Shown here: positions 21,912 to 45,800 of the stretch, in pieces
Numbering within the stretch: position 1 is the stretch's first letter
Layout of the letters: each line of letters opens with the position of its first letter
Source: Cognaticolwellia mytili
Lineage (GTDB): Bacteria > Pseudomonadota > Gammaproteobacteria > Enterobacterales > Alteromonadaceae
NCBI RefSeq assembly: GCF_002104475.1
Contig: NZ_NBOF01000006.1
Span: 1 to 64,000 of the forward strand
Length of the DNA stretch: 64,000 nucleotides
Reading direction: 5' to 3'
Notes under the pieces: generated by a model
The model's input: only the letters and a program-made list of their open reading frames with translations
What the model was told of the DNA's origin: nothing
Databases searched by the model: none
Made by a program: the position numbers and the translations under genes

Positions 21912-23870
21912 ATGTATATAAAAGCTAGCCTATCGGCCATAATTTTGGCTTTGCCTATCACTTCAATAGCGCAAACAACGCCAGACAAAGATCAAGAAGA
22001 ACACATTGTTGTCACAGGAACCCGTACAGCAAAACTATTGAGTAATTCACCAGTTTTAGTGGACGTTATTGACGGTGAAACCATTGCCAAAATTAGTCAC
22101 GGCACTTTGGCACAAGCATTAAATTACATTCCTGGCGTTGTAGTAAAGCGCAGTGTAAAAGACGGTTACAATATTCAAATGCAAGGCTTTGACGGTGATC
22201 ATGTATTAGTGCTTATTGATGGGCAGCCAATTGTTAGCCCAACTGGCTCTTCTGCAGATTTAGACCAAGTACCTGCTAGCAATATTGCCCAAATAGAAGT
22301 TATTCGTGGGGCAGCATCGGTAATGTACGGTAGTTCTGCTATGGGTGGGGTGATTAATATCATCACCCATAAAACAGACCAGCCTAACCTTAAATTTGAT
22401 TACGATATCAGTCAATACCAAGGTAATACAATTGACACTGGTGATTTGAATCACACCTTGAAAGCTTATGCGGTAGATGTTTTTTCTGGTTGGCGCACGC
22501 AACTTAATGCGCTCATCATTGACGACCAAGGCTATGACTACGACAGCAATACCGTCAGTCAAGACGCTGCTAGCGTCGAGAAAAAAATCGTTAGCTTAAG
22601 TATGAGTAAAAGCCATGACGATATTGCCACTAGTGTTAAATACCAATGGTTAGACGATAAAAAGCTTCGTGATAGCTTTGCCATCCCTGGGCAAAGTGAA
22701 GTTATTTACTACCAAACCGATGCGACAGAACACCAACTAGATATTGGTCTTAAAAGTATTAAAAATCCGAAGTCACCATGGCAAATTAACGCCCGCTATA
22801 TCGATCACCAAGAAACCAGTGGTCAGTCAAACGGCTTACGCGACACCAACATTGTGCTTACCGAGGTTAATGGTCAAAAAATATTTCAGATAGATAATAT
22901 TGAACTTGTCACCGGTGGGGTTATTCATGCAGATAAGTTAAACCAAGACAAACCTGCTGACGGTGTTATTGAAATTGATGATAAAAGCAGGGAAAGTGTC
23001 GAAGTTTTTGCTCAGGGTAACTGGGTTAAAAAAAATCACCAAGTGCTTGCAGGGATGCGCAGCCAATATGATTCTGACTTTGGTTGGCATAACGCTGTTC
23101 GTCTTAGTGCCATGAAAAACTTTAGCCTAGATTCCGGGAAATTACAGTGGCGTGCTGGCTTAGGCCAAAGCTACCGAGTGCCTAATTTAAAAGAGCGCTT
23201 CTATATTTTTGACCACAGCGCACTCGGCTATATGGTATTAGGTAATAAAGCACTTGAACCTGAAACTGCCAATTCAATTAATTCGAGCTTAACATTTAAC
23301 ACTACCTTGGCTGATAACGCTGCCGAACTGCGCAGTGATATTAGTATTCATTACTCTAAAACTGACGATCTTATCGATACAGTCGTTGATCCTGAACAAT
23401 CAGAGTTAACAGGCCTGTCTATTTATCAATATCAAAATATTAGCGAAGCCGAAATTCATGGTTTTGACCTCAGCACTGAAGTTAAATTTAACCAGTGGCA
23501 AATGCAATTAAATTACAGTTACTTAACCAGCGAAGATGAACACAATAAACGCTTACTTTCTCGTCCGCGCCATCAGGTGAAGTTCAATATTAATTATGAC
23601 ATTGATGCCTACGACATTGAGCTTATTGCCTATGCAGTTTATCAGGCAGGAGAAGCAGTCCCTGATGGTTATCAGGGTGTCGAAAATAATGAATACAGCA
23701 CATTCAACGCGGTATTAAACCAAGCCTTAACTGACAAGTTATCTTGGCGCATCAGTGTCGACAACATTTTTGATCAACACAAAAGTAGCTCAGCCAATCG
23801 CCAAAATTTATTTGACGCAAGACCTGTTAGTAGTCGCACGATAAGTGCTGGTATTAGCTATCAATTTTAA
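21912..23870 (+). CDS. TonB-dependent receptor, HmuR-like
   Basis: This outer-membrane receptor of 652 residues would bring a large iron compound, most likely heme, into the periplasm using TonB energy. After a signal peptide (ending IAQ) a plug domain runs to about residue 160, with HIVVTGTR, GTLAQALNYIPGV and EVIRGAASVMYGSSAMGGVINI. The barrel follows and ends with the phenylalanine signature SAGISYQF. Its class (BtuB/HmuR-like) cannot separate heme from cobalamin, but the next gene is HmuY-like. It is 18 bases ahead of that gene. Confidence 0.92.
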   Translation: MYIKASLSAIILALPITSIAQTTPDKDQEEHIVVTGTRTAKLLSNSPVLVDVIDGETIAKISHGTLAQALNYIPGVVVKRSVKDGYNIQMQGFDGDHVLVLIDGQPIVSPTGSSADLDQVPASNIAQIEVIRGAASVMYGSSAMGGVINIITHKTDQPNLKFDYDISQYQGNTIDTGDLNHTLKAYAVDVFSGWRTQLNALIIDDQGYDYDSNTVSQDAASVEKKIVSLSMSKSHDDIATSVKYQWLDDKKLRDSFAIPGQSEVIYYQTDATEHQLDIGLKSIKNPKSPWQINARYIDHQETSGQSNGLRDTNIVLTEVNGQKIFQIDNIELVTGGVIHADKLNQDKPADGVIEIDDKSRESVEVFAQGNWVKKNHQVLAGMRSQYDSDFGWHNAVRLSAMKNFSLDSGKLQWRAGLGQSYRVPNLKERFYIFDHSALGYMVLGNKALEPETANSINSSLTFNTTLADNAAELRSDISIHYSKTDDLIDTVVDPEQSELTGLSIYQYQNISEAEIHGFDLSTEVKFNQWQMQLNYSYLTSEDEHNKRLLSRPRHQVKFNINYDIDAYDIELIAYAVYQAGEAVPDGYQGVENNEYSTFNAVLNQALTDKLSWRISVDNIFDQHKSSSANRQNLFDARPVSSRTISAGISYQF

Positions 23871-23888
23871 GAAATCTCGGAGAGAAAA

Positions 23889-25055
23889 ATGAACACTAAA
23901 TTTACGACACCATTTAAATTAACCAGCTTGGCACTATGCGTATTATTAACCGCCTGTGGCGGTGGCAGTAGCTCAAGCAATGAGACTGCGCCAACACCAG
24001 CGCCAACACCAACACCAACACCAGCACCAACTCCAGCACAAGGTGCTGTTAGTGGTCCACATAGCACAGGTAGTGTTAGCGAACCTGTATTTGTTTATTA
24101 CGACTTAGAGACTAAAGCCGTTATTGAACTAACAACAGAACAAGCGGCAACAAATACCGTTTGGGATGTCGCTTTTAAACGCAGCGGTATTTTCTTAAAT
24201 CAACACAGTGATAATACCGTAAAGGCTTATGCTACTGGCAATAACAGTGATTTTTTTGATGCTGACGGTAAAGCAATTGCCGCGAGCTTTATTGCCGCAA
24301 CGGCGGAAACTGAGTTGGATGATTACTTAGCAATAAAAACTAGTGATATTCCAACTGATGAGACTAAATTTGTTGCTGATGTCACATCAAACATCATTGA
24401 AGGTTTTTATGACTACAACTCAACGACTCATGTTGTTACCGCTGCTGATACTAAATATTTTATCGCCAACTCTGATGACGCTTTCACTAAATTTAGAGCA
24501 ACCAGCATTACCACTGCTGGCCGAGGTATAGGCCAAATTACTTTTCAAACGGCTTATCAAAGTAGCAGTGATGCAGCATTTTCCGCAGAGCAAGAGCTCA
24601 CTATTGACGCAGCATTAACTTGTTCAGGTGACGTGACACATGTTTATGTAGATTTTGACATCAACCAAGAAGTTACTATGGCTGATGCTTGGGATATTAA
24701 CTTTCCTTGTGCGGCTGATAAAACTGGTGCTGATTTCACAATTAACATAGCTGATGACGCTCAAGCCATGCACGATTTCGATAATAACTACGATGCTATT
24801 GACCCAACTGCCGTTGCCTACTATGGCTTCCAAAGAAACAGTTACTCAGTAAAAGCATTTGATGGTACTCCTTGGTATCAATACGGTGTAAATGGCGGAC
24901 ATTTATTATGGTCACAATTCGACGTTTACTTAATTAAAACACCAACGAACACTCATAAGCTACAAATGACTAGTTACTACAACGCTGATGGCGTTTCAGG
25001 AAACATTAGTTTTAGATCGGATGAAGTAAATGAACTTGCGGGTGAAAGCGAGTAA
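23889..25055 (+). CDS. HmuY-like heme-binding lipoprotein
   Basis: HmuY proteins capture heme outside the cell and deliver it to the HmuR receptor. The 388-residue product has a lipobox (LLTAC) and a flexible linker of alternating proline and threonine (residues about 38-53). The body resembles HmuY: VFVYYDLETKAVIEL, TVWDVAFKR and the pattern of a six-histidine-poor beta fold ending in a GTPWYQY region. I cannot place the heme ligands with certainty. It follows the receptor closely (18 bases) and is separated from the next gene by a hairpin. Confidence 0.78.
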   Translation: MNTKFTTPFKLTSLALCVLLTACGGGSSSSNETAPTPAPTPTPTPAPTPAQGAVSGPHSTGSVSEPVFVYYDLETKAVIELTTEQAATNTVWDVAFKRSGIFLNQHSDNTVKAYATGNNSDFFDADGKAIAASFIAATAETELDDYLAIKTSDIPTDETKFVADVTSNIIEGFYDYNSTTHVVTAADTKYFIANSDDAFTKFRATSITTAGRGIGQITFQTAYQSSSDAAFSAEQELTIDAALTCSGDVTHVYVDFDINQEVTMADAWDINFPCAADKTGADFTINIADDAQAMHDFDNNYDAIDPTAVAYYGFQRNSYSVKAFDGTPWYQYGVNGGHLLWSQFDVYLIKTPTNTHKLQMTSYYNADGVSGNISFRSDEVNELAGESE

Positions 25056-25078
25056 TTAACCAAACAGCACAGGTTCAA

Positions 25079-25112
25079 ACTCAAGACACCAAACTATAAC
25101 AGTGTCTTGAGT
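25079..25112 (+). terminator. Hairpin between hmuY-like and exbB-like genes
   Basis: Perfect 11-base arms (25079-25089 and 25102-25112) flank a 12-base loop. There is no T run behind it, so full termination is unlikely. It may stabilise the upstream receptor/HmuY mRNA or reduce read-through, which would give more surface proteins than motor and chelatase. That role is inferred. Confidence 0.5.
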
Positions 25113-25174
25113 CTCTGATTCACTATGTTAAACGAATGAATTAGCACATTAAAGAAAACCATTTAGGAAATATT

Positions 25175-25804
25175 ATGATCGCTCAGATCGAACAAACCAT
25201 GTACCAACTGTCTGACTTTTTTATGGCACCAGTACTATGTCTTATTGCACTGCTATTTATTTACTCACTGTTTGCCACTGGCCAGTTTTTTAGTCAAACC
25301 ATGCAACGCCGTCGACATTACAAGTCATTTCTCCAATTGCTCAATAGTGAACTAGGCAGTAATCAAGCATTAAAATTGAATGGCTACCCAATGGCATCAC
25401 TTGCCAATGAAGTACCTAATATTAGTCAAGACCAACTTGATGTTGCAGCCTTAAAAGAACTCGAAGGTGTGCGAAACGTCAGTCGCCTTGCGCCAATGCT
25501 AGGTTTAATAGCCACCATGATCCCAATGGGTCCTGCATTAAAAAGTTTAGCCGACGGTAATATCCAAGGGATTAGTGAAAATCTCATTGTTGCATTTTCA
25601 GCCGTGATCTTCGGTTTAATCATCGCTTCCATTACTTTTTGGATAGCATCAATCAAAAAGCGTTGGATGGTAGAAGAACTTGTCGCCATTATGCCGTTAC
25701 TTAACCATCAAGCTATTAAAAATCAACAAACGGCTGAAAGTGCCACAGTGACAGAATCGGCTTTGCCAATACAAACCTTGGAGAAAGATTATGAGGCTGC
25801 TTGA
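25175..25804 (+). CDS. MotA/TolQ/ExbB-type membrane protein (HmuU-like)
   Basis: The 209-residue protein has three hydrophobic segments (about 18-40, 105-128, 140-165). The middle block reads RLAPMLGLIATMIPMGPALKSLADG, the MotA/TolQ/ExbB signature that forms a proton-driven stator. In Bacteroidetes heme loci the same family (HmuU) sits beside the CobN-like chelatase. It overlaps the DUF2149 gene by 14 bases, so translation is coupled. I infer that it makes a proton channel with that small partner. Confidence 0.85.
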   Translation: MIAQIEQTMYQLSDFFMAPVLCLIALLFIYSLFATGQFFSQTMQRRRHYKSFLQLLNSELGSNQALKLNGYPMASLANEVPNISQDQLDVAALKELEGVRNVSRLAPMLGLIATMIPMGPALKSLADGNIQGISENLIVAFSAVIFGLIIASITFWIASIKKRWMVEELVAIMPLLNHQAIKNQQTAESATVTESALPIQTLEKDYEAA

Positions 25805-26096
25805 TGAAGACGAAGGTATTAACCCTGCATTATCCGTTGTCAATTTAGTTGATGTGTTCTTGGTCCTAGTAGCAGCACTACTGATTGCTATTGCACAAAA
25901 TCCGTTGAACCCTTTCCTCGCTGAAGATGTCACCGTCATTAAAAATGAGGGGAAAGATAATATGGAAATCATCGTGAAAAAAGGCAATACCATAGAAAGC
26001 TTTAAAAGTGATGGAAAAACGGGCTCAGGTACGGGCAAAAAAGCGGGCACTGCATATGAAATGGCAGACGGCAGCATGATTTACGTAAAAGAATAG
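25791..26096 (+). CDS. DUF2149 protein (HmuV-like)
   Basis: The 101-residue protein has one membrane segment (about 17-35; VDVFLVLVAALLIAIAQN), like ExbD or TolR, with an acidic residue at the start that could take part in proton flow. The rest would face the periplasm. DUF2149 proteins are known as partners of ExbB-like proteins in CobN-type clusters. The ATG is preceded by GGAGAAAG, and the gene overlaps the ExbB-like gene by 14 bases. Confidence 0.82.
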   Translation: MRLLDEDEGINPALSVVNLVDVFLVLVAALLIAIAQNPLNPFLAEDVTVIKNEGKDNMEIIVKKGNTIESFKSDGKTGSGTGKKAGTAYEMADGSMIYVKE

Positions 26097-26108
26097 CGAT
26101 AATATCTA

Positions 26109-29100
26109 ATGAAAAACTCTTTAATGAAAATTTCCATATTGTTATTCAGCATATTTACCTTAATGGGTAATGTTTTTGCTGAAACAATAAGTACTAGTAA
26201 AAAGCAGATGGTTAGCGCAAATAACCACAATGTGCTATTTATCAGTACCGCCCATACAAATACCGCAAAAATTACTTTATTAAAAAAAGTCGCTGATGAA
26301 AGAAGCAATCAAACTTGGAATATTTCGCAAAAATCAGCAAAGTCTTTATTAAAAACAGCCAATAAAGTTGGCGATCTAACGGCACTTTTTAACCAATATG
26401 ATTTGGTCATTCTTGATGCTGTATCAGTGCGAGAAGCCAGCGCTGCATTTGATAGCTACGCAAGTGAAATAGCAAAGGCAAAAACTGCAGTTGTTGCCTT
26501 TAGTTACTTAAAAAATCAAGCCCTTAATAAAGGTTTAACCGGTAAAGATACAAGTACATTACAAGATTACTGGATGAATGCTGGCCGTCGTAATCTCGAC
26601 AATATGCTGAGCTTTATTGCCGCAACAGTTATCTCAAAAAATGACAATTCAGCAACAATTGCCAATGTGCCCGCGCCAATTATTTTTCCACAGCAAGGTA
26701 TTTACCACCCAACACTACCAAACTTGATCATTGATGACTTGGTCGCGTATAAAAAATTACGTCCAGTTAAACCACAGCAAGCTAAAATAGCGGTATTGTT
26801 GCAACGAGCATTAATCGAGTCTGAACAAACACAATTAATCGATGCCACAATTAAACAGCTAGAAGCTAAAGGTGCTTACGTGGTGCCATTCTTTTTTGAG
26901 CTTAGCCCTATTAGCGGTGACTACACCCAACTATTGCAAATTCCAAGTACTGAACAAGCTACAGACAGCCAAGCCATAAATGCTCAAGACTTAGCGATGA
27001 AAACAGATGTTGATTTGATTATCAGCTTCCGCAATATTCACTGGGCCAATAAACGTAAAGTAGAGTTTGAAAAGTTCGGTGTTCCTGTAATGCACGCCAT
27101 GACTTATTATTCGGGCGATAAAGCCACATGGGAAAAAGACATGCAAGGTGTGAGCGCCAACATGATGTCTTTCACCTTAGTACTACCTGAAAACGCTGGC
27201 GTGGTCGACCCTATGATCGTCGCTGCCATGAATATGACAGATCAAAACGTTGAAATTATCGATTATCAGCTAGAGCACTTAGTCAATAAAGCGATTAACG
27301 TCGTTAACTTAAAATATAAAGCAAACCAGGATAAAAAATTAACCATGTTTGTTTGGGGTGATAAAGACGTGGGCGCGTCTTTTATGAATATTCCCGAAAG
27401 TATTGAAGCCATTAGTCAACGTTTGGCCAACGAAGGTTATCAAACCGCAGAACGTGACGCTGAATACTTTGTAGAAAATGCAAAAAAAATACTTGACCCA
27501 TTTTACCGCGATTACCAGTTAACAGAGCTATTAGATAACGACTTAGCTGAATTAATGCCCATTAATAAATATTTAGCTTGGTTTAATGCCCTGCCCACTG
27601 AATTAACACAAAAAATAAATGACCATTGGGGACAACCACAAGACAACTTTATGGCGGTAGAGAAAGACGGTGAACACTATTTCATTTTGCCGCGTATTCG
27701 TAATGGCAATATGCTAGTTATGCGTCAACCTCCTCGCTCTGATAGTAAGAATGACGAGAATATGATTTATCATCAGGGCCTAGTGCCAATTAATCACTTC
27801 TATCTTGCAGCCTATTTTTATGCCCGTGAATATTGGCAATCAGACGCCATTGTGCATTTGGGTACCCATGGCTCACAAGAATACCTAGGTGGAAAAGAAC
27901 GAGGTTTATCTATTTATGACCAAGGCAATTTAGCGGTTTGGGATACGCCAGTGGTTTATCCGTTTATTGTTGATGATGTTGGTGAAGCCATGCAAACCAA
28001 ACGCCGTGGCCGAGCGACAGTTATCTCACATATGACACCACCCTTTGCTGCTGCAGGTTTAGAGGGTGAAATACGTAATTTACATGAGTTAATGCATCAA
28101 TATAAACAGCTTGATCAAGGTGGCGTAAAGCAAAAAACAGCTAGCCAATTAACTAAACTATGTTTCGATACCAATATTTGTAAAGACTTAGGCTGGGAAC
28201 AAGCACAAATAACTACTGCATTTGACGAATTTATCGATGCTTTGCATATTCACTTAGAAGACTTAGCAACAGCGAACCAACCGTTAGGCTTACATACCTA
28301 TGGCTATATTCCTGAGCAACCGTTAACTATTTCAACCTTAGTACAAATGCTAGGTAACGATTTTACCCAACGTGCAAGTGAATTTGAGCATGAGAATTAC
28401 GCTGATAGTTTAGTTGGCGAGCATCATGATGATGACGAAGATCAAGGCGTTTCGCATAGCCATACTTATCATTCTGAAGACCCTGCAAGTCGTGATAAAA
28501 ACAGTACTGACAAGAAGTCAGAGCAAGCGCTTAGCCCTGTAAATGAAGATCAAAACGAAAATGACATTACACGATTATCAGGTTACTTAACCGTTAAGAA
28601 CTACATCATTGCTACTGATGAGCCTTCAACGCAGCAACCAGTGCCTTTAACTGAGCTTTCTGAGCCACTACAAGCTGATATTGAACGAGGTAAAAAACTT
28701 TACCAAAGTATGGCGAGCATCCACGAACTTGATGCTATGGTTGATTTTCTTAATGCTAAATATATCCCGGTAAAGTCTGGCGGCGACCCAATACGTCACC
28801 CAGAATCACTCGCAACAGGCTATAACTTATTTGGTTTTAATCCTTCCCGAGTTCCTACGCAAGCAGCATTCGAACAAGGTAAAGAGTTAGTTGAGCAGAT
28901 GATTGCCAATTATTACGAAAAGCACCAAGCCTACCCGGATAAAATGGCCTTCTCGTTATGGTCGATTGAAACCATGCGCCATTACGGCGTGCTGGAATCA
29001 CAAGTGTTGTATGCCATGGGTGTTAAACCTAAATGGAGTAAAAGCGGTCGAGTTATTGGCACTGAAGTTATTCCTTACAGTGAATTAAAACGCCCTCGTA

Positions 29101-30413
29101 TCGACGTTGTGCTTTCTGCAACCGGTTTATACCGCGACGCATTTCCTAATGTCATGCAAATGTTAGCAAAAGCGGTTAACCAAGTTGCCGCCTTAAAGGA
29201 AGACAACAATTCAGTTTGGCAAAACAGCCAAAAAGTAAAAGCCAATTTACTCGCCGAAGGTGTTGACGAAAAGGAAGCAGAATATTTGTCAACGATTCGC
29301 ATATTTTCAAATCAATCTGGTGACTATGGCACTGGCGTTGATGATGCCGCGTGGGCCAGCGATACGTGGGAAACTGACAAGAAAATATCTGATAACTACT
29401 TAGGTAAAATGGGCTACTTCTTCGGCGCCGACAATAGCCGTTGGGGTGAAAAAGGCGAAAATACTGAGGGTAAAGATATTCAGCTATATACCAAGCAATT
29501 ATCAGGCACTGACATTGCGATGTTTGCTCGCTCTTCAAACTTATTTGGCATGTTAAGCACAGATGATCCCTTTGAATACTTTGGCTCACTCAGCTTAGCG
29601 GTGAGAAATATCGACGGTAAAAGCCCTGACATGGTAGTGGCAAATTTGCGTGACGCTAAAAATGCTAAAGCAGAAGATGCCGGGCTATTTCTCGCTAAAG
29701 AACTACGTACTCGTATGTTCCATCCTCGTTGGATTAAAGAACTGCAAAAAGAAGGTTATTCAGGCGCGGTTTCTTTAGCATCGAAAATGGACAATTTCTT
29801 TGGCTGGCAAGTGGTTGACCCTAACTTAATTCGCAACGACCAATGGGATGAATATTTAGATATTTACGTTAATGATAAATTAAACCTAGCACTTGATGAA
29901 TGGTTTAAAGATATCAACCCAGCAGCGTTTGCTCGTATGATGGAGCGAATGTTAGAAGCTGAGCGTAAAGACTATTGGCAAGCTGACCCTGAACGTTTAA
30001 AACAATTGGTTGAGCAGTATATTGACGTCGTTAATAACAACGACTTAGTTATTTTAAATGACGCCGTAAAAGCTCATGTTAATGAACTTGCCGAAGGTTA
30101 TGGTTTAGCGCCACTAGTAACCAAAACAATGGAAGCAATGGCAGCAAGTGCTGACGCTCAAAAAGCCATGAACAATCAACAATTGGCTGAGCAGAAATCA
30201 GAAAATGCAGAGCAACAAATTGAAGGACAAAAACTGGAAAAACAAGTGCAACAAACAATGAAGCCTAACGACTTTATTTACTATAGCTTGTTCGGTATTT
30301 TATTCTTAATAGCCTGCGGCGCAGTTTGGCAAACTCGTGCAGCTAAAACAAAGCATCAAGAAATATATTTAATCGCACCAAAAAATCAGGTCATAACAAA
30401 TAAGGCTGCCTAG
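26109..30413 (+). CDS. CobN-like chelatase, exported and membrane-anchored (HmuS-like)
   Basis: The 1434-residue protein belongs to the CobN/BchH large-subunit family. In Bacteroidetes its relative HmuS removes iron from heme. Motifs are clear: HLGTHGSQEYLGGKERGLS, YPFIVDDVGEAMQTKRRGRA and SHMTPP (about 580-640), and SVMRxP-like FNPSRVPT. Unlike cytosolic CobN it has a signal peptide (1-24) and a C-terminal membrane segment (about 1395-1413), so the bulk lies in the periplasm. A charged His/Asp/Glu-rich insert (about 768-820) interrupts the family pattern. No cobS or cobT is nearby. A cobalamin-type role is less likely because of the HmuY-like gene. Confidence 0.86.
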   Translation: MKNSLMKISILLFSIFTLMGNVFAETISTSKKQMVSANNHNVLFISTAHTNTAKITLLKKVADERSNQTWNISQKSAKSLLKTANKVGDLTALFNQYDLVILDAVSVREASAAFDSYASEIAKAKTAVVAFSYLKNQALNKGLTGKDTSTLQDYWMNAGRRNLDNMLSFIAATVISKNDNSATIANVPAPIIFPQQGIYHPTLPNLIIDDLVAYKKLRPVKPQQAKIAVLLQRALIESEQTQLIDATIKQLEAKGAYVVPFFFELSPISGDYTQLLQIPSTEQATDSQAINAQDLAMKTDVDLIISFRNIHWANKRKVEFEKFGVPVMHAMTYYSGDKATWEKDMQGVSANMMSFTLVLPENAGVVDPMIVAAMNMTDQNVEIIDYQLEHLVNKAINVVNLKYKANQDKKLTMFVWGDKDVGASFMNIPESIEAISQRLANEGYQTAERDAEYFVENAKKILDPFYRDYQLTELLDNDLAELMPINKYLAWFNALPTELTQKINDHWGQPQDNFMAVEKDGEHYFILPRIRNGNMLVMRQPPRSDSKNDENMIYHQGLVPINHFYLAAYFYAREYWQSDAIVHLGTHGSQEYLGGKERGLSIYDQGNLAVWDTPVVYPFIVDDVGEAMQTKRRGRATVISHMTPPFAAAGLEGEIRNLHELMHQYKQLDQGGVKQKTASQLTKLCFDTNICKDLGWEQAQITTAFDEFIDALHIHLEDLATANQPLGLHTYGYIPEQPLTISTLVQMLGNDFTQRASEFEHENYADSLVGEHHDDDEDQGVSHSHTYHSEDPASRDKNSTDKKSEQALSPVNEDQNENDITRLSGYLTVKNYIIATDEPSTQQPVPLTELSEPLQADIERGKKLYQSMASIHELDAMVDFLNAKYIPVKSGGDPIRHPESLATGYNLFGFNPSRVPTQAAFEQGKELVEQMIANYYEKHQAYPDKMAFSLWSIETMRHYGVLESQVLYAMGVKPKWSKSGRVIGTEVIPYSELKRPRIDVVLSATGLYRDAFPNVMQMLAKAVNQVAALKEDNNSVWQNSQKVKANLLAEGVDEKEAEYLSTIRIFSNQSGDYGTGVDDAAWASDTWETDKKISDNYLGKMGYFFGADNSRWGEKGENTEGKDIQLYTKQLSGTDIAMFARSSNLFGMLSTDDPFEYFGSLSLAVRNIDGKSPDMVVANLRDAKNAKAEDAGLFLAKELRTRMFHPRWIKELQKEGYSGAVSLASKMDNFFGWQVVDPNLIRNDQWDEYLDIYVNDKLNLALDEWFKDINPAAFARMMERMLEAERKDYWQADPERLKQLVEQYIDVVNNNDLVILNDAVKAHVNELAEGYGLAPLVTKTMEAMAASADAQKAMNNQQLAEQKSENAEQQIEGQKLEKQVQQTMKPNDFIYYSLFGILFLIACGAVWQTRAAKTKHQEIYLIAPKNQVITNKAA

Positions 30414-34144: not shown

Positions 34145-35023
34145 ATGATAAATCTACTTTGGTTAAAAACCTACTGTACCTTGGCTGAGCTAGGCCATTT
34201 TACTAAAACTGCAAATGTCTTATATATGACCCAGTCTGGCGTTAGCCAGCATATAAAGAAACTCGAACAGCAGTTAGACATTGCACTTTTGCTTAGAGAG
34301 GGAAAGTCATTTACTTTAACAGACGCTGGTTTGCACTTGTATCAAAGCGGTAAACAGCTTTTACAAGCTAGCGATGACCTTGCCATTTCGATAAAACAAG
34401 ATGAAGCCTATGTTGGTAATATCCGAATTTCATCTCCAGGCAGTGTCGGCTTAAAGCTCTACCCACACCTGTTAGGTATTCAACAAAAGCATCCAGAATT
34501 ATCACTAGACTACACCTTTGCGCCGAATAGCAGCATTAAAACGGCTTTAATTGATCGTAAAATCGATATTGGCCTAATGACGGAAACTTCAAAAACAAAC
34601 AAATTAACCAGTCAATGTATTGCTTTAGAGCCCTTGGTGTTAGTGACTAGCAACAAAGTTACAAAAATAAATTGGCAAGTATTAACAAAATTAGGTTTTA
34701 TCCTGCACCCCGATGTTGAGCATCATGCAAACTTATTACTGAGTGAGAACTTCAAAGAATTTGAACATATAGACCAATTTACGCATAAAGGTTTTTCTAA
34801 TCAAATCAGCCTAATTCTTGAGCCGGTTAGCCGAAATATTGGTTTTACTGTCTTGCCCTTACATGCAGCCAATGCTTTTCATCAACAAAAATTAATTCGT
34901 ATTCAACCATTGGCAAACCCCGTCAGTGAAGGCATATATCTTTGTCAGAATAAAAATGCCTTTGAAAGTACTAGGAATAAGCAGCTTAAGAGCATAATCA
35001 TCGATTTTTTAGGTGCTAGTTGA
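34145..35023 (+). CDS. LysR-family transcription regulator
   Basis: The 292-residue protein starts with a winged helix: LKTYCTLAELGHFTKTANVLYMTQSGVSQHIKKLEQQL, the typical LysR helix-turn-helix (about 6-45). The C-terminal part is the periplasmic-binding-like effector domain (about 90-290). Its target is probably the divergent VOC gene. Effector unknown. Confidence 0.92.
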   Translation: MINLLWLKTYCTLAELGHFTKTANVLYMTQSGVSQHIKKLEQQLDIALLLREGKSFTLTDAGLHLYQSGKQLLQASDDLAISIKQDEAYVGNIRISSPGSVGLKLYPHLLGIQQKHPELSLDYTFAPNSSIKTALIDRKIDIGLMTETSKTNKLTSQCIALEPLVLVTSNKVTKINWQVLTKLGFILHPDVEHHANLLLSENFKEFEHIDQFTHKGFSNQISLILEPVSRNIGFTVLPLHAANAFHQQKLIRIQPLANPVSEGIYLCQNKNAFESTRNKQLKSIIIDFLGAS

Positions 35024-35253
35024 ATATTAGCTTTAGTGGCAAGCACGATATACTCGCTGCACGATTTAACAAGTGTACTATAAAAATAGGGGTTATCAGT
35101 CTAAAAATTGGCTTAAAACAAATCAAACCATCACAAAGCTGTATTAACAATATATTGATATATAACAATTAAACGCACATAAAACAGGCAATATCTATAT
35201 TCCTCGTTATACTGAAATTAAAAGAAAAATCGACTCATAGTGGAATGTAAGTA

Positions 35254-35787
35254 ATGCCAAATAATAATGTAAGAAAGGACGAATCGAAAGCCTCTCCTCC
35301 GATAGATGAATTGCAGCAGCTTAGAAAAATTGTTTTTGGCAATGCTGAGCAACAGTTGAAAGAAAAAATATCATCAACACATGCTGAAATGCAAAAAGCA
35401 CTCAATACTCAAAAAGAGAGTTTTAACGCAAATTTAGCTAGTTTTCAGCAAGTGACTGAACAGCGCTTCACTGAACTTGAGCAGCGCCTCAGCCTATCAG
35501 ATAAAACTCATGAAGATAACGAATCTGTTATTCAGAAAGATTTAGCAAGTTTAGCTTCCGAGCATGAAATGTTTGCAGCATCTACACAGCAAGACTTCAA
35601 AAGTATTGAACAGTCTCTTAATAATGAGAGCGATGGCCTTAGTAAAAGTTTTAATGAACAAATAGAGCAATTAAAGTCACATCTTGAAGGTGTATCGAAA
35701 GAACTTAGTTCTTCTAAAACAGATAGAAAAACACTGGCTAAATTACTATCTACCATGGCAACTAATTTAGAAGATGACCAGCTATAA
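35254..35787 (+). CDS. Coiled-coil protein, first gene of the GTPase module
   Basis: The 177-residue product is cytosolic with no leader. From about residue 15 to the end it has long heptad runs typical of a coiled coil, rich in E, Q, K, S and L. Its start, LQQLRKIVFGNAEQQLKEK, shares the pattern LRxxxxG with the next protein (IEQIRTLILGKNN). That suggests a common docking motif. It overlaps the next gene by one base (TAATG), so the two are translated together. No family name is known to me. Confidence 0.75.
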   Translation: MPNNNVRKDESKASPPIDELQQLRKIVFGNAEQQLKEKISSTHAEMQKALNTQKESFNANLASFQQVTEQRFTELEQRLSLSDKTHEDNESVIQKDLASLASEHEMFAASTQQDFKSIEQSLNNESDGLSKSFNEQIEQLKSHLEGVSKELSSSKTDRKTLAKLLSTMATNLEDDQL

Positions 35788-37571
35788 TGCTCGAAGACAA
35801 TACAGAAGAACAAGTTGAGTCTGAACAGCATATAGAACAAATTAGAACACTAATACTCGGTAAAAATAACGCTTTAGTTACTGAGAGTGTTAAAAAAGAA
35901 GCTCGTACGCTAGTAACTGATGTTGTCACCGAAGCACTACATGACAGACAAAAACAAGACAGTTCCGTTAATAAAGTGTTACAGCCGCTTATAGAAGATT
36001 CGGTTAAACATTCAGTTGCACACAATAGTGAGCGGCTAGTAAGTTCATTGTACCCGCTTGTTGGTAGTTTAGTGCGAAAGTCAGTGGCCGCATTTCTCAG
36101 TGACTTCATGGAAAAAACTAATCAATTATTAGAAAATAGCCTGACATTAAAAGGCTTAAAGTGGCGATTAAGAGCTTGGCAAACTGGTGTTAGCTTCGCT
36201 CAATATGCCGCATCACAAACTTTTGCTTATCGCGTTGAACATGTTTTTCTTATTCATCGAGAAACAGGCTTACTCTTAAATGCGGTAGACATAGGTAATG
36301 AAGAAAAAAGTGACGCAGATATGGTCTCTTCGATGCTTTCAGCAATTAATAGCTTCGTTGGTGACTCTTTTTTAACTGGTGAAGAAGGTCAAAAAGAGCA
36401 ATTACAGACCGTTAGTACTGACAGTTTCAACTTACTGATAAAGCCGGGTCCTAGTGCTTTAGTCGTTGCTGCTGTGATAGGAAATCCACCACAAAAAATT
36501 AGTAACCAACTGCAGCTTACTTTAGAAAACATTCATCAACTCTATTTTAATGAACTCAATCAGTTCGATGGTGACAACCTCCCCTTTGCCGATGCAGAAA
36601 ACTTACTGCGAGACTGTTTACTGTCTGAGCAAAAAACTGAAGAAAAGAAAAAGAAAAAACCTTGGCTGGCCCTCACACTACTATTCATAATAGCTACCAG
36701 CTTAGGCTACCAAGTAGTCTCTTGGGTAAAAAATCAGCAGCTACATAAAAAAATTATGCAATTGGACCACGAGCCCGGCGTTGTTATCCGGCAGCTAACC
36801 ATCAATAATCTTGACGATATTTACCTTGATATTTTACGAGATCCTAATGCAGTAATACTTACACAATGGCTAAAAGATAATAACTTAGCCGTTGAAAAGT
36901 TCACGATTGTAGAGCAAAACTACCACTCTCTTGATTCAAAAATACTGTTTTACCGCGCCGAGAAAATTGTAAATAAATTTCCACAACTCAGTTTAAGTTG
37001 GAAAAACAGCTCCTTATCCCTATCGGGAAAATTAGATTTTAGTGATTATCAGCAACTTTTGAGCGCTTTAGCTATTGCTGGTTTTACCAAAGAGCGCAAC
37101 TTAAACATTGAACAATTACAACTAGCCTCAACCCATAAAATAGTGTCAAGCAGGCAAGTAAAGCAGCAAATTTTTGATGACTTAGTTGGTAGAATTTCCT
37201 CTACTCAACTCGACTTTGCGGTAGAAAGTGAAGAAATAACAGCAAAAATGCAAATTTCATTAGATCAAATTGAGCAGTATATGGCTCAATTGAGCGTATT
37301 GGCAAAAGAGCTTAGTATCAATATTGGTCTATTAATTATTGGCTGCAGCGACAATACCGGTAATATTGCCACCAATAAGGCTTTAAGCCTAAACAGAGCA
37401 AAAAACACAGAGAAAGAGTTAATAAAAAAAGGCCTAGATGCAGAACAAGTACATGTTATTGGGCTTGGTCAAATTGATATCAATGCGGTCAAAAATACCG
37501 CAAGAAAAGTGATATTTAATGTGGTATATATAAATGAAGCACACATTAAAGATAGTCAGTTAATTCCCTAA
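35787..37571 (+). CDS. Membrane protein with roadblock-like and OmpA-like domains
   Basis: The 594-residue protein links cytoplasm to cell wall. Residues 1-130 are helical. Residues about 145-270 run RVEHVFLIHRETGLLLNAV, MVSSMLSAINSFVGDSF, ALVVAAVIGNPP, a pattern like roadblock/longin domains that bind small GTPases (inference). A basic stretch and one membrane segment follow (about 285-310). The C-terminus (about 470-590) is OmpA-like: IIGCSDNTGNIATNKALSLNRAKNTEKELIKKGL and GLGQID, the peptidoglycan-binding fold. A Ras-like GTPase follows after 74 bases. Orientation should be N-terminus in the cytoplasm. Confidence 0.8.
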   Translation: MLEDNTEEQVESEQHIEQIRTLILGKNNALVTESVKKEARTLVTDVVTEALHDRQKQDSSVNKVLQPLIEDSVKHSVAHNSERLVSSLYPLVGSLVRKSVAAFLSDFMEKTNQLLENSLTLKGLKWRLRAWQTGVSFAQYAASQTFAYRVEHVFLIHRETGLLLNAVDIGNEEKSDADMVSSMLSAINSFVGDSFLTGEEGQKEQLQTVSTDSFNLLIKPGPSALVVAAVIGNPPQKISNQLQLTLENIHQLYFNELNQFDGDNLPFADAENLLRDCLLSEQKTEEKKKKKPWLALTLLFIIATSLGYQVVSWVKNQQLHKKIMQLDHEPGVVIRQLTINNLDDIYLDILRDPNAVILTQWLKDNNLAVEKFTIVEQNYHSLDSKILFYRAEKIVNKFPQLSLSWKNSSLSLSGKLDFSDYQQLLSALAIAGFTKERNLNIEQLQLASTHKIVSSRQVKQQIFDDLVGRISSTQLDFAVESEEITAKMQISLDQIEQYMAQLSVLAKELSINIGLLIIGCSDNTGNIATNKALSLNRAKNTEKELIKKGLDAEQVHVIGLGQIDINAVKNTARKVIFNVVYINEAHIKDSQLIP

Positions 37572-37645
37572 ATATACTGGCAAGTTAGCAACGTAAATAG
37601 TGCTTTGTTCAGAAAAGGTAACTTAGCCAAAATGGAGGTGGCGCT

Positions 37646-38164
37646 ATGATTCAAAAGAAAATTTGTCTATTAGGTGCGTCGAGTGTCGGAAAAACTAGCT
37701 TAGTTAAACAATTTGTCGAAGGTATTTTTAGTGAAAAATACCTCACAACAATAGGTGTTAAAGTTGATAAAAAATCACTAGTGGTAGATGACGAAGAAAT
37801 CAATTTCATGTTGTGGGATATCGAAGGAAGTGATCGCTATAACGTTTTTGAAGAAAGGTACTTACGCGGCGCTGCTGGCTATATTATCGTTGTTGATCAA
37901 ACACGAGCCTCATCACTGATTGAAGGTTTAGACATTCACACCTTAGCAAAACAAGTGACCTCTTGTCCGGCAGTTCTGGCAATCAATAAAAGTGATTTAC
38001 CTTCTACTTGGCACTTATCAGCAATAGAACAAGATGCGTATCAAAAACTTTTCGATCTGCAATTTACCACAAGCGCGAAAACTGGTGAGCATGTGGACGA
38101 TATGTTCTTAGCATTGGCGGCATTATTGTTAAAGGATAAGAAGAATGACATCACTGCTGAATAG
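37646..38164 (+). CDS. Ras/Rab-like small GTPase
   Basis: The 172-residue protein has the G motifs in order: G1 GASSVGKTS (residues 9-17), G2 threonine in LTTIGV, G3 WDIEGSD, G4 NKSD, G5 TSAKTG. The size and layout fit the Ras superfamily more than the usual bacterial GTPases. The glutamine after DxxG that helps hydrolysis is replaced by serine, so a partner protein may be needed, as for MglA and MglB. The ribosome site GGAGGTGG is strong. It overlaps the next gene by 20 bases. There is no lipid-attachment cysteine at the end. Confidence 0.9.
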   Translation: MIQKKICLLGASSVGKTSLVKQFVEGIFSEKYLTTIGVKVDKKSLVVDDEEINFMLWDIEGSDRYNVFEERYLRGAAGYIIVVDQTRASSLIEGLDIHTLAKQVTSCPAVLAINKSDLPSTWHLSAIEQDAYQKLFDLQFTTSAKTGEHVDDMFLALAALLLKDKKNDITAE

Positions 38165-40276
38165 TGTTTTAAACGCATTAGAACAAATTGTATTAGAAGT
38201 TATCGATATTGACGACGGAAAAGTTAAGTTAGTTCAGGGGGGGGAGCGTGGGCCAAAGCCCTTTTTCCAGACTCTGATCATCAACAAATCTTTACTATTA
38301 GTGAAGATACACCGTTTTTATTCGATTTTCTTATTGATGCCAGACTAGTATGGCGCGATCATAAAAATGCTAAGCTTCGCTCTGGGTTATGGACCGAGGA
38401 AATTAAAAATCATAGCGCGCTTCACCTAGAAGCTATCGCCATAAGACAAGAACAGCACAATATATTACTGATCACTAATCAATTGGCAGATTACCAATTT
38501 CAACAAAAAACTAAGCAGTTAGCTCGAGAGATACTATTATCTAACGATCGTTTATTTTTACAAAATGAATATTTACAAACACGGTTACGCTCTATTTTAA
38601 GTCAACCACCAGAACAAAGTAATCTTGTATTTGCTTTAACTAAAGTCATCGAAAACGCAGATTTCGGCGTCATAGTGGTCGATGCTAATTTTTCAACAAT
38701 TATTGAAAATACTGCCGCGTTAACCCTTTTTGAACATAACTCATCCAATAACACCACTGCGGTTAGACCGATAAATATCATTACGAAATTGATGAAAAAT
38801 CAATTACCTGAATATGATCGTATCATATCAACCAAATCCAATTGGGACGGTGAATTATGCTGGATATCACCACCATCAACATTGAAATGGCTTAAAATTG
38901 GCTTTCACCCGGTAAAAAACAAACTCAACGAACCTGAAAGCTGGCTAGTTTTTGCCAATGATATCAGTACTATAAAACACTTAGCGCAGCGTAATGAAAA
39001 GCTAGCTTTACAAGATATGCTAACCGAATTACCTAATCGTTTTTCTTTTTGGCAAACTTTAGATCAACAAATTATCACCGGCTCACCATTTTATCTGCTA
39101 TATGTTGATATTAATGAGTTTAGACGTCACAACGAATTTTATGGTCACCAAGAAGGCGACAAACTACTGATCGACTTTGGTCGACGAATTGAGAGTGTCA
39201 TAAAAAAATCCGACTTTATTGCCCGAGTAGGAGGCGATGAGTTTGCCATCATACTGGCGAATATCGACAACCAAGAGGCATGTAAAGGTGCTATAGAACG
39301 CATATTAGAGACTATAAGTAAGCCTTATCAAACAAATAAATTAGAAAGCTTTCATATTAGTGTCAGTATCGGCGCTGCAAATTTTCCTAATGACGCCACA
39401 AGCGTTGAAGAATTGATGAAATTCGTCGATTTAAGTGCCTACAGTGGTAAAGAAAATAAGAAAAATTCTTTGCTGTTTTATTCTCAAGAGATTAAAGACG
39501 CCTCACATCATTTAATTAAAGTTGAGCAAGAATTAAGACAAGCAATCAACCAAGAAGAATTTGAATTATTTTTACAGCCGATTGTGGATTTAGAAAGCCA
39601 CTCCATTAGTAAAGCAGAAGCCTTAATTCGCTGGAATCATCCGACTAAAGGTTTGATTAGCCCTGACAAATTTATCCCTATAGCTGAAAAAAGTGGCCTA
39701 ATTATTACCATAGGTGAATGGGTAATAAAACGTGCTTGCCAGATGATTAAGGAAATTAACGCCAAAGGTCACAATGTTATCATTTCGATTAACCTATCTC
39801 CTTCGCAAGTTATTGATGAAAACTTATTTTCCTACTTGCATAGCTGTATTAAAACCTCTCAGGTTGAGCCATCATCATTAGAGTTGGAAGTCACTGAAGG
39901 AGTATTAGTTGATGATTACTCAATAGCAAAAAGATTATTAAATAATGCAAGAGCCATTGGTATAACAGTATCAGTCGATGATTTTGGCACCGGGTACAGT
40001 TCATTAGCTTATCTGAAAAAATTACCGCTAGATTTTTTAAAAATTGATCGTTCTTTTATTAAAGACATAGTTGCCGATGAAAATGACAAAGCCATTGTTC
40101 GCGCCGTTATTGCTATGGCACATAACCTTAAACTATCAGTTATTTCTGAAGGCGTGGAAACAGAAGAACAATTAAAGTTTTTAATAAAAAACTCATGTAA
40201 CTCAGTGCAAGGTTACCTTTTTAGTCGTCCAGTACAATTAGAGTATTTCTTAGATATACTTAAAGAGCAGTGGTAA
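38145..40276 (+). pseudogene. GGDEF/EAL protein, frame split at a G8 tract (possibly phase-variable, now OFF)
   Basis: The frame opened at 38145 overlaps the GTPase gene and ends at 38348. A second frame from 38483 encodes 597 residues with a PAS-like part, GGDEF and EAL. Adding one G to the G run at 38237-38244 joins the two into one frame of 710 residues, with no stop between: the new middle reads AWAKALFPDSD and FDFLIDARLVW. GGDEF is intact (RVGGDEF), but the inhibitory site is KKSD. EAL shows AEALIRW and DDFGTGYSS. The second half could also be made alone from a weak TTG at 38483. A sequencing error cannot be excluded. Confidence 0.8.
38237..38244 (+). repeat. Run of eight G, possible slippage site
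   Basis: Eight consecutive G inside a coding region of an AT-rich genome, at codons 31-33 of the GGDEF/EAL gene. A run of 6 or 9 gives the full frame; 8 gives a stop at codon 68. This fits a contingency locus that changes by slipped-strand mispairing. Confidence 0.75.
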
Positions 40277-40283
40277 CTAAATC

Positions 40284-40318
40284 TATAGCGAGCAAATTAA
40301 ACTTACTCGCTATATTTA
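40284..40318 (+). terminator. Terminator of the GTPase module
   Basis: A 9-base stem TATAGCGAG/CTCGCTATA (40284-40292 with 40306-40314), a 13-base loop and TTTAAG behind it. The T run is short, so it may be weak. Confidence 0.6.
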
Positions 40319-40371
40319 AGCTGAGGCGTAATAATCAAAAAACTTTTTAGCTGTATTTTATGAAACCTTAG

Positions 40372-42624
<2,253 letters not shown>

Positions 42625-43042
42625 ATTAACTTCCTCTCATAAGTGAGCCATAGTTGCCAAGCAATGAACTTGAATACATAAATGAAAATTTCATTAATGA
42701 ATATACCGATATAATGTGCAAATAATGAGGAGATGAACAACTAAATACCTAGTATCAAGAAAAAAGCGTCAACCCTCTTCGCAGTCATTAATAATAGTGC
42801 ATATTTACAGGAATAATTTATCGCTAGAATTTCTGTGAAACGGCTTAGCACAACAGAGTTTATTGGAGCCTAAAAGCTAAATATTAAAAGCCTTAAAATT
42901 TTCATATGCAGTTTTAGTTGTTAAGAAACAATTAATTTTACTTCAAATAAGGCCCTAGAGGCCTGTCAAAATAGTTTACAGTATGAGTATAATCGCAACA
43001 AAAAATCAATATTTTCATACTAAATACATAAGGTTATCGCTT
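42625..43042. other. Intergenic region, mostly featureless
   Basis: This stretch lies between the divergent sulfatase and PEP-CTERM genes and must hold both promoters. I see only an imperfect palindrome CTGT-N11-ACAG at 42963-42981, listed with the next site. There is no open frame worth calling. Confidence 0.5.
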
Positions 43043-43058
43043 TGGCTTATAAAGTGCT
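42963..43058 (+). promoter_or_regulatory. Candidate sigma-54 promoter of the PEP-CTERM gene with upstream palindrome
   Basis: TGGCTTATAAAGTGCT at 43043-43058 has GG and GC twelve bases apart, the fixed layout of -24/-12 promoters (12 of the conserved positions match only in part). The palindrome CTGT-N11-ACAG lies 62 bases upstream of it and could be an activator site. PEP-CTERM genes in other bacteria are driven by sigma-54 with the PrsK/PrsR pair. This is a reading by eye. Confidence 0.4.
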
Positions 43059-43111
43059 TATACCTGCGAGTTACTCCAAATAACCCAAACGGAATTTAGG
43101 AAGAATATAAA

Positions 43112-43852
43112 ATGACATTTTATAAACTTATCATCATTGGCTTACTAGCAACTTGCTTTACTGGCACAGCTAACGCAACGATCATAGAGTGGGAATCTAA
43201 TTACGGCACACTCAGTGATTTAAGTGGTGACGATGATAATAACGAGCTCTTTAACTTAGGCTTCGATTTTAGCTTTTATAACACTACTTATAATCAAGTT
43301 TATGGCTCAACGAACGGTAGCCTTTTCTTTAATAACGAGGAGGAATATGCAATAGGAAGCGACATAGAAGGCGGTTATGGTCCTATGATTGCCGCATTCA
43401 ATGCCGATCTTAATCCCGAAGAAGGCGGAGATATTTATACTAACACCTTAGGCACAGCTGGTGATAAAAGGTTTGTCATGACCTGGCTTAACGTAATTGA
43501 CTACGAAGAAGAATTTTATAATTCCTTCCAAGCTATTTTATTCGAAAATGGCACAATTCGTTTTAACTATTTACAGTTAAATGGCAGTGGTGATGATGGC
43601 GGCAATGATGTTATTGGCGTATCACAAGGTGATGACAGCCACTTTAACTATTTCACTGCGGATGATGGTAATGCCAATGGTATCCATCCGAGCGGAAAAT
43701 CCTTACTCTATACTTGGAATAGCACATCCGCAAACTATGACCAAACAGCAAGCCAATTAGCTTCGGTTTCTGAGCCGACTACACTCGCTATTTTTGCACT
43801 TGGCATATTAGGACTGGCTTCTCGACGCTTTAAAAATAGCAATTCATTGTAA
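43112..43852 (+). CDS. PEP-CTERM secreted protein with a nidogen-like domain
   Basis: The 246-residue product has a signal peptide (to about residue 23, ending ANA), a beta-rich body (about 30-200) resembling nidogen-type domains, and the PEP-CTERM tail: SEPTTLAIFALGILGLASRRFK with hydrophobic span and basic end (about 221-242). Such tails are sorted by an exosortase (EpsH family), and these proteins link to surface polysaccharide. No exosortase gene is in the window. A candidate sigma-54 promoter lies upstream. Confidence 0.85.
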   Translation: MTFYKLIIIGLLATCFTGTANATIIEWESNYGTLSDLSGDDDNNELFNLGFDFSFYNTTYNQVYGSTNGSLFFNNEEEYAIGSDIEGGYGPMIAAFNADLNPEEGGDIYTNTLGTAGDKRFVMTWLNVIDYEEEFYNSFQAILFENGTIRFNYLQLNGSGDDGGNDVIGVSQGDDSHFNYFTADDGNANGIHPSGKSLLYTWNSTSANYDQTASQLASVSEPTTLAIFALGILGLASRRFKNSNSL

Positions 43853-44225: not shown

Positions 44226-45800
44226 ATGAGCTTTAATCTGGGTTACTTAGCGCTTTTGTTAAGTTTTATTATTGTCACAGGGTGTGGTGGTGGAGGCGAA
44301 AGTGAAGAGACTAAACAAACGCTAAACTCTGCGGTGATCAATGCTATTAATATTACTGGCACATGGGCTGAAGGGGAATTATTAAATGCCGCTGTAGACT
44401 GTACAGAGTGTTTAGCTTCAATGAATAAGTTTAGCTGGTCAATTGATGGCAAGAACATATCGAATACAGATAGTTACCTGTTAACTTTTGCTGATCTTGA
44501 TAAAAAAATACGTATTGATGTCTCGTCCAGCAATACTACTAATTTAATTGCCAACGCCTACCAAATAATAACAGCTGAATATAAAAATCATGTCGCTCAC
44601 ATATACTCTAACGTTAGAGCCTTTGCCGCGCTTAAGCTTGATGGTTCGGTTGTTACTTGGGGTGAAAGCTCTATAGGGGGTAATAGCGATAATGTCGAGC
44701 TAACCAATGTCAGCAAAGTTTTTTCTAATGATGGTGGATTTGCCGCATTGAAAAATGACGGTTCAGTCATTAGCTGGGGCTTACTGCCAACGTCTAGTCG
44801 CATCAATCCTTTATTGGTCGATGTAATAGAAATTTATGCGACAGATTATGCTTTCGCGGCACTTAAAAAAGATGGTTCAGTCGTCACTTGGGGCAATACG
44901 GAACATGGCGGGGACAGTAATGCTGAAGTTTTAACTGATATAAGTCATATTTACGCGACTACTTCAGCTTTTGCAGCACTAAAAAATAATGGCTCAGTGA
45001 TTACGTGGGGAAAAGGTGATCGAGGCGGAGACAGTAGCAAAGTCACGCTGAACAATGTTAAAGATATTTACTCGACAAATTCTGCCTTTGCAGCACACAA
45101 AACCGATGATTCAATAGTAACTTGGGGCGGAGGCACTTTCTCAAACAGTGAACCTGTCATTCTAGAAAATGTCAGTAAAGTATTTTCCAACCCGTTTGCT
45201 TTTGCCTTCCTAAAAACTGATAACTCAGTAGAAACATGGGGGCATATTGACTACGGCGGTATCAGTAACGATATTCCATTAAATAATATAGTGAAAGTTT
45301 TTTCTACTGATACTGCATTCGCAGCACTAAAAAAAGATGGCTCAGTAGTGACATGGGGAGACAATAGTTACGGCGGCGATAGTAGTCATGTAACTCTAAA
45401 CGATATTTCTACCATTTACGCGAATGCTTTTGCATTTGCAGCGCTGAAAACAGATGGCACTGTTATAACTTGGGGGTGGAACACTCGCGGAGGCGATAGC
45501 ACTGCAGTAGATTTAACGAACGTAGTAAAAATATTCTCAACAATAAATGCCTTTACTGCTCTCAAAGCAGATGCTTCAATTGTAACTTGGGGCGAGATAA
45601 ACTCAGGAAGTGACAGTAGTATCATTGACCCCAGCAACATAACAAATGTTTATGCGACAAATAATGCTTTTGCCGCATTAAAGAAAGACTGGACTGTAGT
45701 TACATGGGGACATAGAAATTATGGTGGCGATAGCAGCACAGTAGCAGATAAGCTTACTCCAACAGTAGAAATTATTGTCAGTGATACAGACTTGCCCTAG
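44226..45800 (+). CDS. Lipoprotein with RCC1-like tandem repeats
   Basis: The 524-residue protein has a lipobox (VTGC) and a first domain (about 35-115). Ten repeats of about 37-38 residues follow from residue 125 to 500. Each contains the core AALKxDGSVVTWG, a GGDS turn, then the strand pattern xxLxNVxxIYATxxAFA. This is the repeat type of RCC1-like beta-propellers seen in many marine bacteria; seven units would make one blade ring, and ten exceed it. The role is probably surface binding. Repeats differ more in turns than in the WG core. The gene stands alone. Confidence 0.88.
   Translation: MSFNLGYLALLLSFIIVTGCGGGGESEETKQTLNSAVINAINITGTWAEGELLNAAVDCTECLASMNKFSWSIDGKNISNTDSYLLTFADLDKKIRIDVSSSNTTNLIANAYQIITAEYKNHVAHIYSNVRAFAALKLDGSVVTWGESSIGGNSDNVELTNVSKVFSNDGGFAALKNDGSVISWGLLPTSSRINPLLVDVIEIYATDYAFAALKKDGSVVTWGNTEHGGDSNAEVLTDISHIYATTSAFAALKNNGSVITWGKGDRGGDSSKVTLNNVKDIYSTNSAFAAHKTDDSIVTWGGGTFSNSEPVILENVSKVFSNPFAFAFLKTDNSVETWGHIDYGGISNDIPLNNIVKVFSTDTAFAALKKDGSVVTWGDNSYGGDSSHVTLNDISTIYANAFAFAALKTDGTVITWGWNTRGGDSTAVDLTNVVKIFSTINAFTALKADASIVTWGEINSGSDSSIIDPSNITNVYATNNAFAALKKDWTVVTWGHRNYGGDSSTVADKLTPTVEIIVSDTDLP

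Follow-up and report, generated by a model that had tools for sequence, protein, structure and literature searches.

In a 64,000-nucleotide stretch of Cognaticolwellia mytili DNA (contig NZ_NBOF01000006.1, positions 1 to 64,000; hereafter the window), a row of four genes at 35254..40276 was assigned to the operons that surround Group 1 Rup GTPases and is read, with a probability of about 0.6, as a signalling operon that turns a condition of the cell wall or envelope into a local cyclic di-GMP (c-di-GMP) signal. The genes, termed A to D, encode a coiled-coil-like protein, an OmpA-type membrane protein, a Rab-like small GTPase and a GGDEF/EAL protein. Their layout is the same as that of the Group 1 Rup neighbourhood in the accessible text of Wuichet and Sogaard-Andersen 2014 (PMC4316618), so that the original prediction of an undescribed system does not hold; a prior description of the layout was an outcome that the prediction itself had named as its refutation. 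The spacings given in that prediction were correct: A and B overlap by 1 base, B and C are separated by 74 bases, and C and D overlap by 20 bases if D starts at the ATG at 38145. Of the four genes that it listed, A, B, C and the GGDEF/EAL frame were recovered as such; the break of the fourth gene at a run of eight G had been missed. The features of the row are the following (positions in the window).

35254..35787, plus strand: gene A, coiled-coil-like, open reading frame (ORF) of 177 amino acids
35787..37571, plus strand: gene B, ORF of 594 amino acids with a predicted cytoplasmic domain, one membrane helix, a periplasmic linker and a C-terminal OmpA domain
36258..36479, plus strand: weak, putative roadblock-like (MglB-like) core of B, cytoplasmic, residues 158-231, from profile comparison
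36663..36728, plus strand: single membrane helix of B, approximate, a hydrophobic stretch after KKKKK judged by eye
36741..37214, plus strand: putative periplasmic region of B, BON-like by homology (BON match in the Nostoc B protein, locus L239)
37215..37499, plus strand: OmpA domain of B, peptidoglycan-binding type (Pfam PF00691, E-value 1.4e-9, residues 477-571)
37646..38164, plus strand: gene C, small Rab-like GTPase (Rup type), ORF of 172 amino acids (Pfam Ras, E-value 4.2e-29)
38145..38348, plus strand: first piece of gene D, start of the N-terminal domain in frame 1, ended by a stop
38228..40276, plus strand: second piece of gene D, remaining N-terminal domain, GGDEF and EAL (Pfam and N-terminal profile)
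38237..38244, plus strand: eight consecutive G, the point where D goes out of frame, read from the sequence
38516..38518, plus strand: codon of the conserved glutamine of D, from alignments across all output types
39005-39466, plus strand: GGDEF domain of D (Pfam, E-value 3.8e-37)
39527-40231, plus strand: EAL domain of D (Pfam, E-value 4.8e-78)
40284..40314, no strand: terminator-like hairpin of 14 pairs behind the operon and between two converging genes, consensus match only

According to the accessible text of PMC4316618, Group 1 Rup GTPases are encoded with a coiled-coil protein, a protein composed of an unknown domain, a membrane helix and an OmpA domain, and an output protein, for which a histidine kinase or a fusion of diguanylate cyclase and phosphodiesterase is typical. 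The N-terminal region of the output is described there as carrying an invariant glutamine, which is called noteworthy given the glutamine missing from G3 and is proposed to complete the GTPase in trans; the same text states that no bacterial Rab-like (Rup) GTPase had been experimentally characterised by 2014. The window row compares with this layout as follows: C is a small (<240 amino acids), Rab/Ras-like GTPase of the Ras superfamily that lacks the catalytic glutamine of G3, B combines an N-terminal domain without a family match with a membrane helix (by eye) and a C-terminal OmpA domain (Pfam), the output has the glutamine codon, downstream of a frame break, and A, a putative coiled-coil protein by weak Pfam coil matches, is a conserved neighbour in 39/39 and 79/79 loci of the two sets described below. 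No later work or experiment on this layout was found in the open-access literature, subscription papers lying outside the search. New relative to 2014 are the conservation of EAL together with the decay of GGDEF, the HD-GYP and cyclase outputs, the roadblock signature in B and the frame break in D. The window operon belongs to a kind known from the in silico description of 2014, and its relatives include variants that go beyond the accessible main text of that work.

For the analysis of conservation, a family sample of 147 genomes from 52 genera was searched, and 39 relatives were fetched for gene order. Gene A was detected in 40/147 genomes, B in 40/147, C in 41/147 and the N-terminal domain of D in 39/147, spread over 18 of the 52 genera for A, B and the D N-terminus and 19 for C. 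Matching genomes contained one match to each gene, except for G004, in which B appeared as two matches, and G129, which lacked D; one of the 41 matches to C (G073) was partial and weak (29%). Within the family, B and C co-occurred with a Fisher p of 2e-35, uncorrected for kinship. Genes followed the order A-B-C in 39/39 fetched relatives, with D next in 38/39. The arrangement is far beyond chance, and a chance neighbourhood was excluded, as the identical four genes recur in the same genomes. The earlier expectation that the four genes belong together was supported, in that they form a conserved unit in which a membrane protein of the wall-binding type and a small GTPase are combined with c-di-GMP turnover, and the co-occurrence check proposed with it had a positive outcome.

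Beyond the family, a scan of named genomes returned at least 585 candidate stretches, the best 79 of which were used as named loci. A adjoined B in 79/79 of these, and A-B-C were adjacent in 76/79, including one metagenome-assembled genome (MAG) of Chloracidobacterium and one of Verrucomicrobiae. The named loci include Colwellia, Paraglaciecola, Alteromonas, Marinomonas, a Vibrio, Hahella and Thiothrix, as well as MAGs called Chloracidobacterium, Verrucomicrobiae and Latescibacterota. A conserved fifth gene was not seen, the commonest flanking family besides A-D being present in 27/79 named loci. In a sample at phylum level, the B profile matched 48/398 genomes, six of which belong to the family; 19 loci were opened among the 42 others and, with L207 from an order-level scan, made up a further set of 20 loci. 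A plasmid search yielded the GTPase in 4 records and B in the same four, with 6 more records matching the OmpA end only. Two of the four records were opened (Mesorhizobium, Nostoc): the plasmid of Nostoc sp. UHCC 0926 (L239) carries A (by eye), B and C together with a hybrid histidine kinase, and the record of Mesorhizobium sp. WSM1497 annotates, in a row, a hypothetical protein, an OmpA family protein, a Rab family GTPase and an adenylate/guanylate cyclase.

Comparison of C with solved structures (phmmer) gave Rab5 and Rab35 as the best relatives (Rab5B, E-value 8.9e-24). In its G3 motif (DIEGSDRY, residues 58-65), Ser replaces the catalytic Gln. Across an alignment of 136 relatives with partly redundant rows, the G1 lysine, the G3 aspartate (136/136) and the N, K and D of G4 were invariant; the catalytic position held Gln in 2/136 and otherwise Ile (59), Glu, Asn, Val, Thr or other residues. 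In the accessible text of PMC3000849, MglA is set apart from other GTPases by a threonine, Thr78. The Pfam roadblock family (MglB, PF03259) had no match at an E-value of 1e-6 in the genome of the window (4.5 Mb in 42 contigs), and none in the row. Thr78 replaces what we take to be the G3 aspartate. An MglA type for C, with which the row had initially been compared, was rejected on these three grounds, namely the proximity to Rab, the aspartate and the missing roadblock match, and C is classed by similarity and motifs as Rab/Rup-like rather than MglA-like.

The D proteins were aligned after exclusion of three broken or cut sequences, leaving 106 partly redundant proteins. The catalytic residues of the EAL domain (E, N, E, D, D, K, E and Q) were kept in 104-106/106, the third residue of the GGDEF motif was Asp in only 57/106, and Arg was absent from the five commonest residues at the position of the I-site arginine. 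Because the EAL residues are kept while GGDEF decays, the alignment suggests that the output of D is c-di-GMP breakdown and that its GGDEF domain is mostly regulatory. The copy in the window retains the letters of both the GGDEF and the EAL motif. The N-terminal glutamine stood in its column in 104/106 D proteins and was shifted in the alignment in the other two (L143, L150). It was also present in 26/26 outputs when 6 of the D proteins were aligned together with 20 other outputs (in the column for 25, shifted by one place for the remaining one), and a similar Q-GANE stretch was seen by eye in the Nostoc kinase. A PAS-like nature of the D N-terminal domain, plausible by eye, was dropped (score 11.8 versus up to 20.7 in 100 shuffles).

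The outputs of other loci were typed by BLAST against 11 examples, on the same strand and within 3.5 kb. The 79 named loci contained 71 GGDEF/EAL proteins, 4 HD-GYP-type proteins, 2 histidine kinases and 2 cases of no output, and the 20 further loci contained 12 class III nucleotide cyclases, 2 kinases (one of them, in L199, an ORF with an uncertain start), 1 GGDEF/EAL protein and 5 cases of no output. Pfam confirmed the cyclase in 4/4 loci tested (L190, L193, L196 and L198), a further 8 being called by BLAST, and the kinase in L147, L156 and L200; in L203, a kinase lies just past C on the opposite strand. In L190, a cyclic-nucleotide-binding, Crp-like gene adjoins the cyclase. The HD-GYP outputs (L145, L151, L153 and L157; Thiolinea/Thiothrix) carry the same N-terminal domain. 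Pfam HD_5 was found in L145, the sole one tested, which also has the motifs HDIGK and HHERWDGTGYP, and the other three were called by BLAST; HD-GYP, the output of the Thiothrix group, is likewise a c-di-GMP-degrading family. The accessible main text of PMC4316618 contains 0 mentions of terms for such cyclase, cyclic AMP (cAMP) or HD-GYP outputs. Since four enzyme classes, including a nucleotide cyclase, are swapped behind one conserved GTPase-linked domain, these operons suggest a general bacterial G-protein relay and not a c-di-GMP oddity.

Alignments of A and B comprised 40 and 39 sequences, respectively, one of D N-termini comprised 26, and a second B alignment was assembled from the window protein and 60 of 78 usable named B proteins. 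The N-terminal ~290 residues of B matched no Pfam or NCBIfam family above cut-off, and we infer the membrane side of each part of the protein. Pfam BON did not match the window B, the corresponding region being assigned from the Nostoc protein, in which BON was found in two stretches (E-value 2.5e-8) in addition to OmpA; the match of B to the YfiB model stayed below the cut-off of that model. A Pfam search also gave no roadblock match in B. Residues 136-261 were picked before the roadblock test because their pattern suggested a roadblock or longin core, and the 61-sequence B profile was then aligned with 29 roadblock proteins (29/30 loci; L227 yielded no suitable frame and was left out), giving an E-value of 0.0019 and a probability of 14% over 68 columns. 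With hhalign, the chosen core reached probabilities of 12-16%, and the complete domain 5-6% (E-value 0.006-0.007). The match-column score was 22.9 versus a maximum of 20.9 over 200 column shuffles and 9.1-14.9 for eight controls; with 22 more distant B proteins added, it was 23.8 versus at most 22.85 in 200 shuffles. These values suggest, and do not prove, that the cytoplasmic part of B carries a weak roadblock (MglB-like) signature. Profile comparison of B with solved structures returned nothing useful (one de novo protein, E-value 0.33). Protein A, whose coiled-coil call came from its composition and sub-threshold Pfam coil matches, carries the motif LRxIVFG near its N-terminus and ends in a strongly conserved motif, SSKTDRKTLAKLLATMA; A and B have a short N-terminal LR....G motif in common (profile comparison, 24 columns, 31% probability).

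The analysis shows the parts of the row and their conservation, the kept EAL site, the swapping of output enzymes and the conserved glutamine; from these we infer the interactions of the proposed pathway, the direction of its signal and its stimulus as follows. B would cross the inner membrane, its OmpA domain fixing it to the cell wall, and the cytoplasmic part of B would, together with A as a coiled-coil partner, provide the site at which C docks or is regulated. When in one of its nucleotide states, C would bind the N-terminal domain of D and alter its EAL activity, so that EAL would degrade c-di-GMP under a mainly regulatory GGDEF domain and a wall or envelope condition would become a local c-di-GMP signal. 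Because C is without a catalytic glutamine of its own, GTP hydrolysis would be completed by a partner, in the simplest case by the invariant glutamine that ends the N-terminal domain of D, an idea put forward in the accessible text of PMC4316618; D would then be effector and switch-off partner at once. No experimentally established job was found for bacterial Rab-like (Rup) GTPases, and the operon offers them a partner bound to the wall, an output enzyme whose catalytic residues are kept and one glutamine that can be mutated, which makes a first biochemical test simple. As a tentative extension that we hold to be possible though doubtful, the cytoplasmic part of B could be a roadblock-type GTPase platform joined by one helix to a wall-binding BON/OmpA tail, and Group 1 Rup operons could be a general trans-envelope relay with plug-in outputs (EAL, HD-GYP, kinase or class III cyclase) that are all switched through one glutamine-bearing domain. 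If true, this arrangement would give bacteria an equivalent both of the scaffolds that roadblock proteins provide for small GTPases and of the coupling from Ras to cyclase.

Several observations weigh against the proposed pathway. The open-access literature yielded no interaction, enzyme or localisation experiment, and the counted rows are partly redundant, some genomes falling in both locus sets. The row is patchy beyond the family, with the order-level B profile matching 9/247 genomes, only 1 of them non-family. In G129 (L073) there is no D, in L147 the GTPase lies 6 kb away from the row, and two Gammaproteobacteria MAGs (L143 and L150) have A-B-D without an adjacent GTPase, a GTPase relative being located elsewhere in both genomes; D is shortened in these two loci. 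Seven loci (L135 and L146 of the 79, and five of the 20) are without a recognised same-strand output within 3.5 kb. Finally, the D of the window is itself not an open frame.

The same parts were weighed against other explanations. A wall anchor of the OmpA type and a coiled-coil protein would suit a landmark, and known bacterial small GTPases set polarity, so B might instead anchor the GTPase and D at a pole or septum, with C controlling the place of D activity and not its level, in the way that MglA acts on motility proteins. We consider such a positioning device unlikely: the outputs are swapped among four enzyme classes, including a cyclase that makes a diffusible messenger, and no gene family recurs widely in the flanks (at most 27/79 named loci). 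The signal might also run from the inside out, D sensing c-di-GMP or GTP through EAL and a decayed GGDEF and turning the GTPase off by its glutamine, with a LapD-like effect on B and the envelope. The decay of GGDEF in about half of the family (Asp in 57/106) would suit this direction, as would a glutamine that could act on C. We regard it as improbable, given that the EAL catalytic residues are almost fully kept, unlike in a pure receptor, and that it would not carry over simply to loci in which the output is a kinase, HD-GYP protein or cyclase.

A further explanation concerns this strain alone, in which the operon could be a decaying remnant, with D a pseudogene and A, B and C persisting without an output. 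D is split by a frame change at the eight-G run: translation from 38145 reaches a stop at 38348 after 67 codons, GGDEF and EAL lie in another frame that stays open for 682 codons to 40276, and the two frames overlap across 38237-38244, the sole G/C run of at least 6 within 35254-40276. The N-terminal profile of D (positions 30-156) matches the window from 38237 onward, and the conserved-glutamine codon is present, with the break upstream of it. No G/C run of at least 7 occurred at the corresponding place in related D genes (0/106), and a G or C run of seven was found in 3/106, always elsewhere in the gene. D was a single ORF in 38/38 family relatives possessing it, and among the named loci it was split in L104 and L115 and truncated by a contig end in L105. 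Against decay stand the second piece, which is open over those 682 codons and 67-75% identical to the D of the closest relatives (L040-L047 and L079), and the open frames of A, B and C. As a single assembly is the source, an assembly error or phase variation of the run is as possible for D as true damage, and a remnant is judged to be a conceivable but not the favoured explanation.

Among known systems, MglA/MglB of Myxococcus also comprises a bacterial small GTPase and, if the weak signature in B is real, shares a roadblock-type partner with the window row; the window GTPase differs in being Rab-like with a G3 Asp, there is no separate MglB gene, and the partner would here form one portion of a membrane protein anchored in the wall. 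Actinobacterial conservons (CvnA kinase, CvnB roadblock, CvnC and CvnD) are likewise four-gene rows with a small GTPase and a signalling output, whereas the window row is without a roadblock gene and a sensor kinase, contains a GTPase of another family and has an OmpA anchor instead. Systems of the YfiBNR or LapD type similarly couple an envelope protein to a c-di-GMP enzyme, and YfiB likewise has an OmpA-type domain, but the window row places a GTPase between the envelope protein and the enzyme.

The row is flanked by a LysR-type gene (named by eye) on one side and, on the other, by a sulfatase fused to a YHYH domain (40372-42624, minus strand) that converges on the operon. Terminator-like sites numbered 1 versus 3.9 expected in shuffles, and promoter patterns were dropped as evidence, 13 sites in 34900-40600 comparing with 18.1 in shuffles. 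Rfam gave no match at gathering score in 34900-43200, so an RNA element in the row was discarded. Elsewhere in the window, 15288-17378 (minus strand) encodes another GGDEF/EAL protein, of ordinary type, which contains CHASE8 and HAMP domains, and RCC1-type repeats occur at 44226-45800 in a protein with a lipoprotein-like start (by eye). The region 21912-30413 encodes a TonB-dependent receptor and, three ORFs further along, a large CobN/magnesium-chelatase-like protein that, judged by eye, seems to have a signal peptide and, at its C-terminus, a membrane helix.

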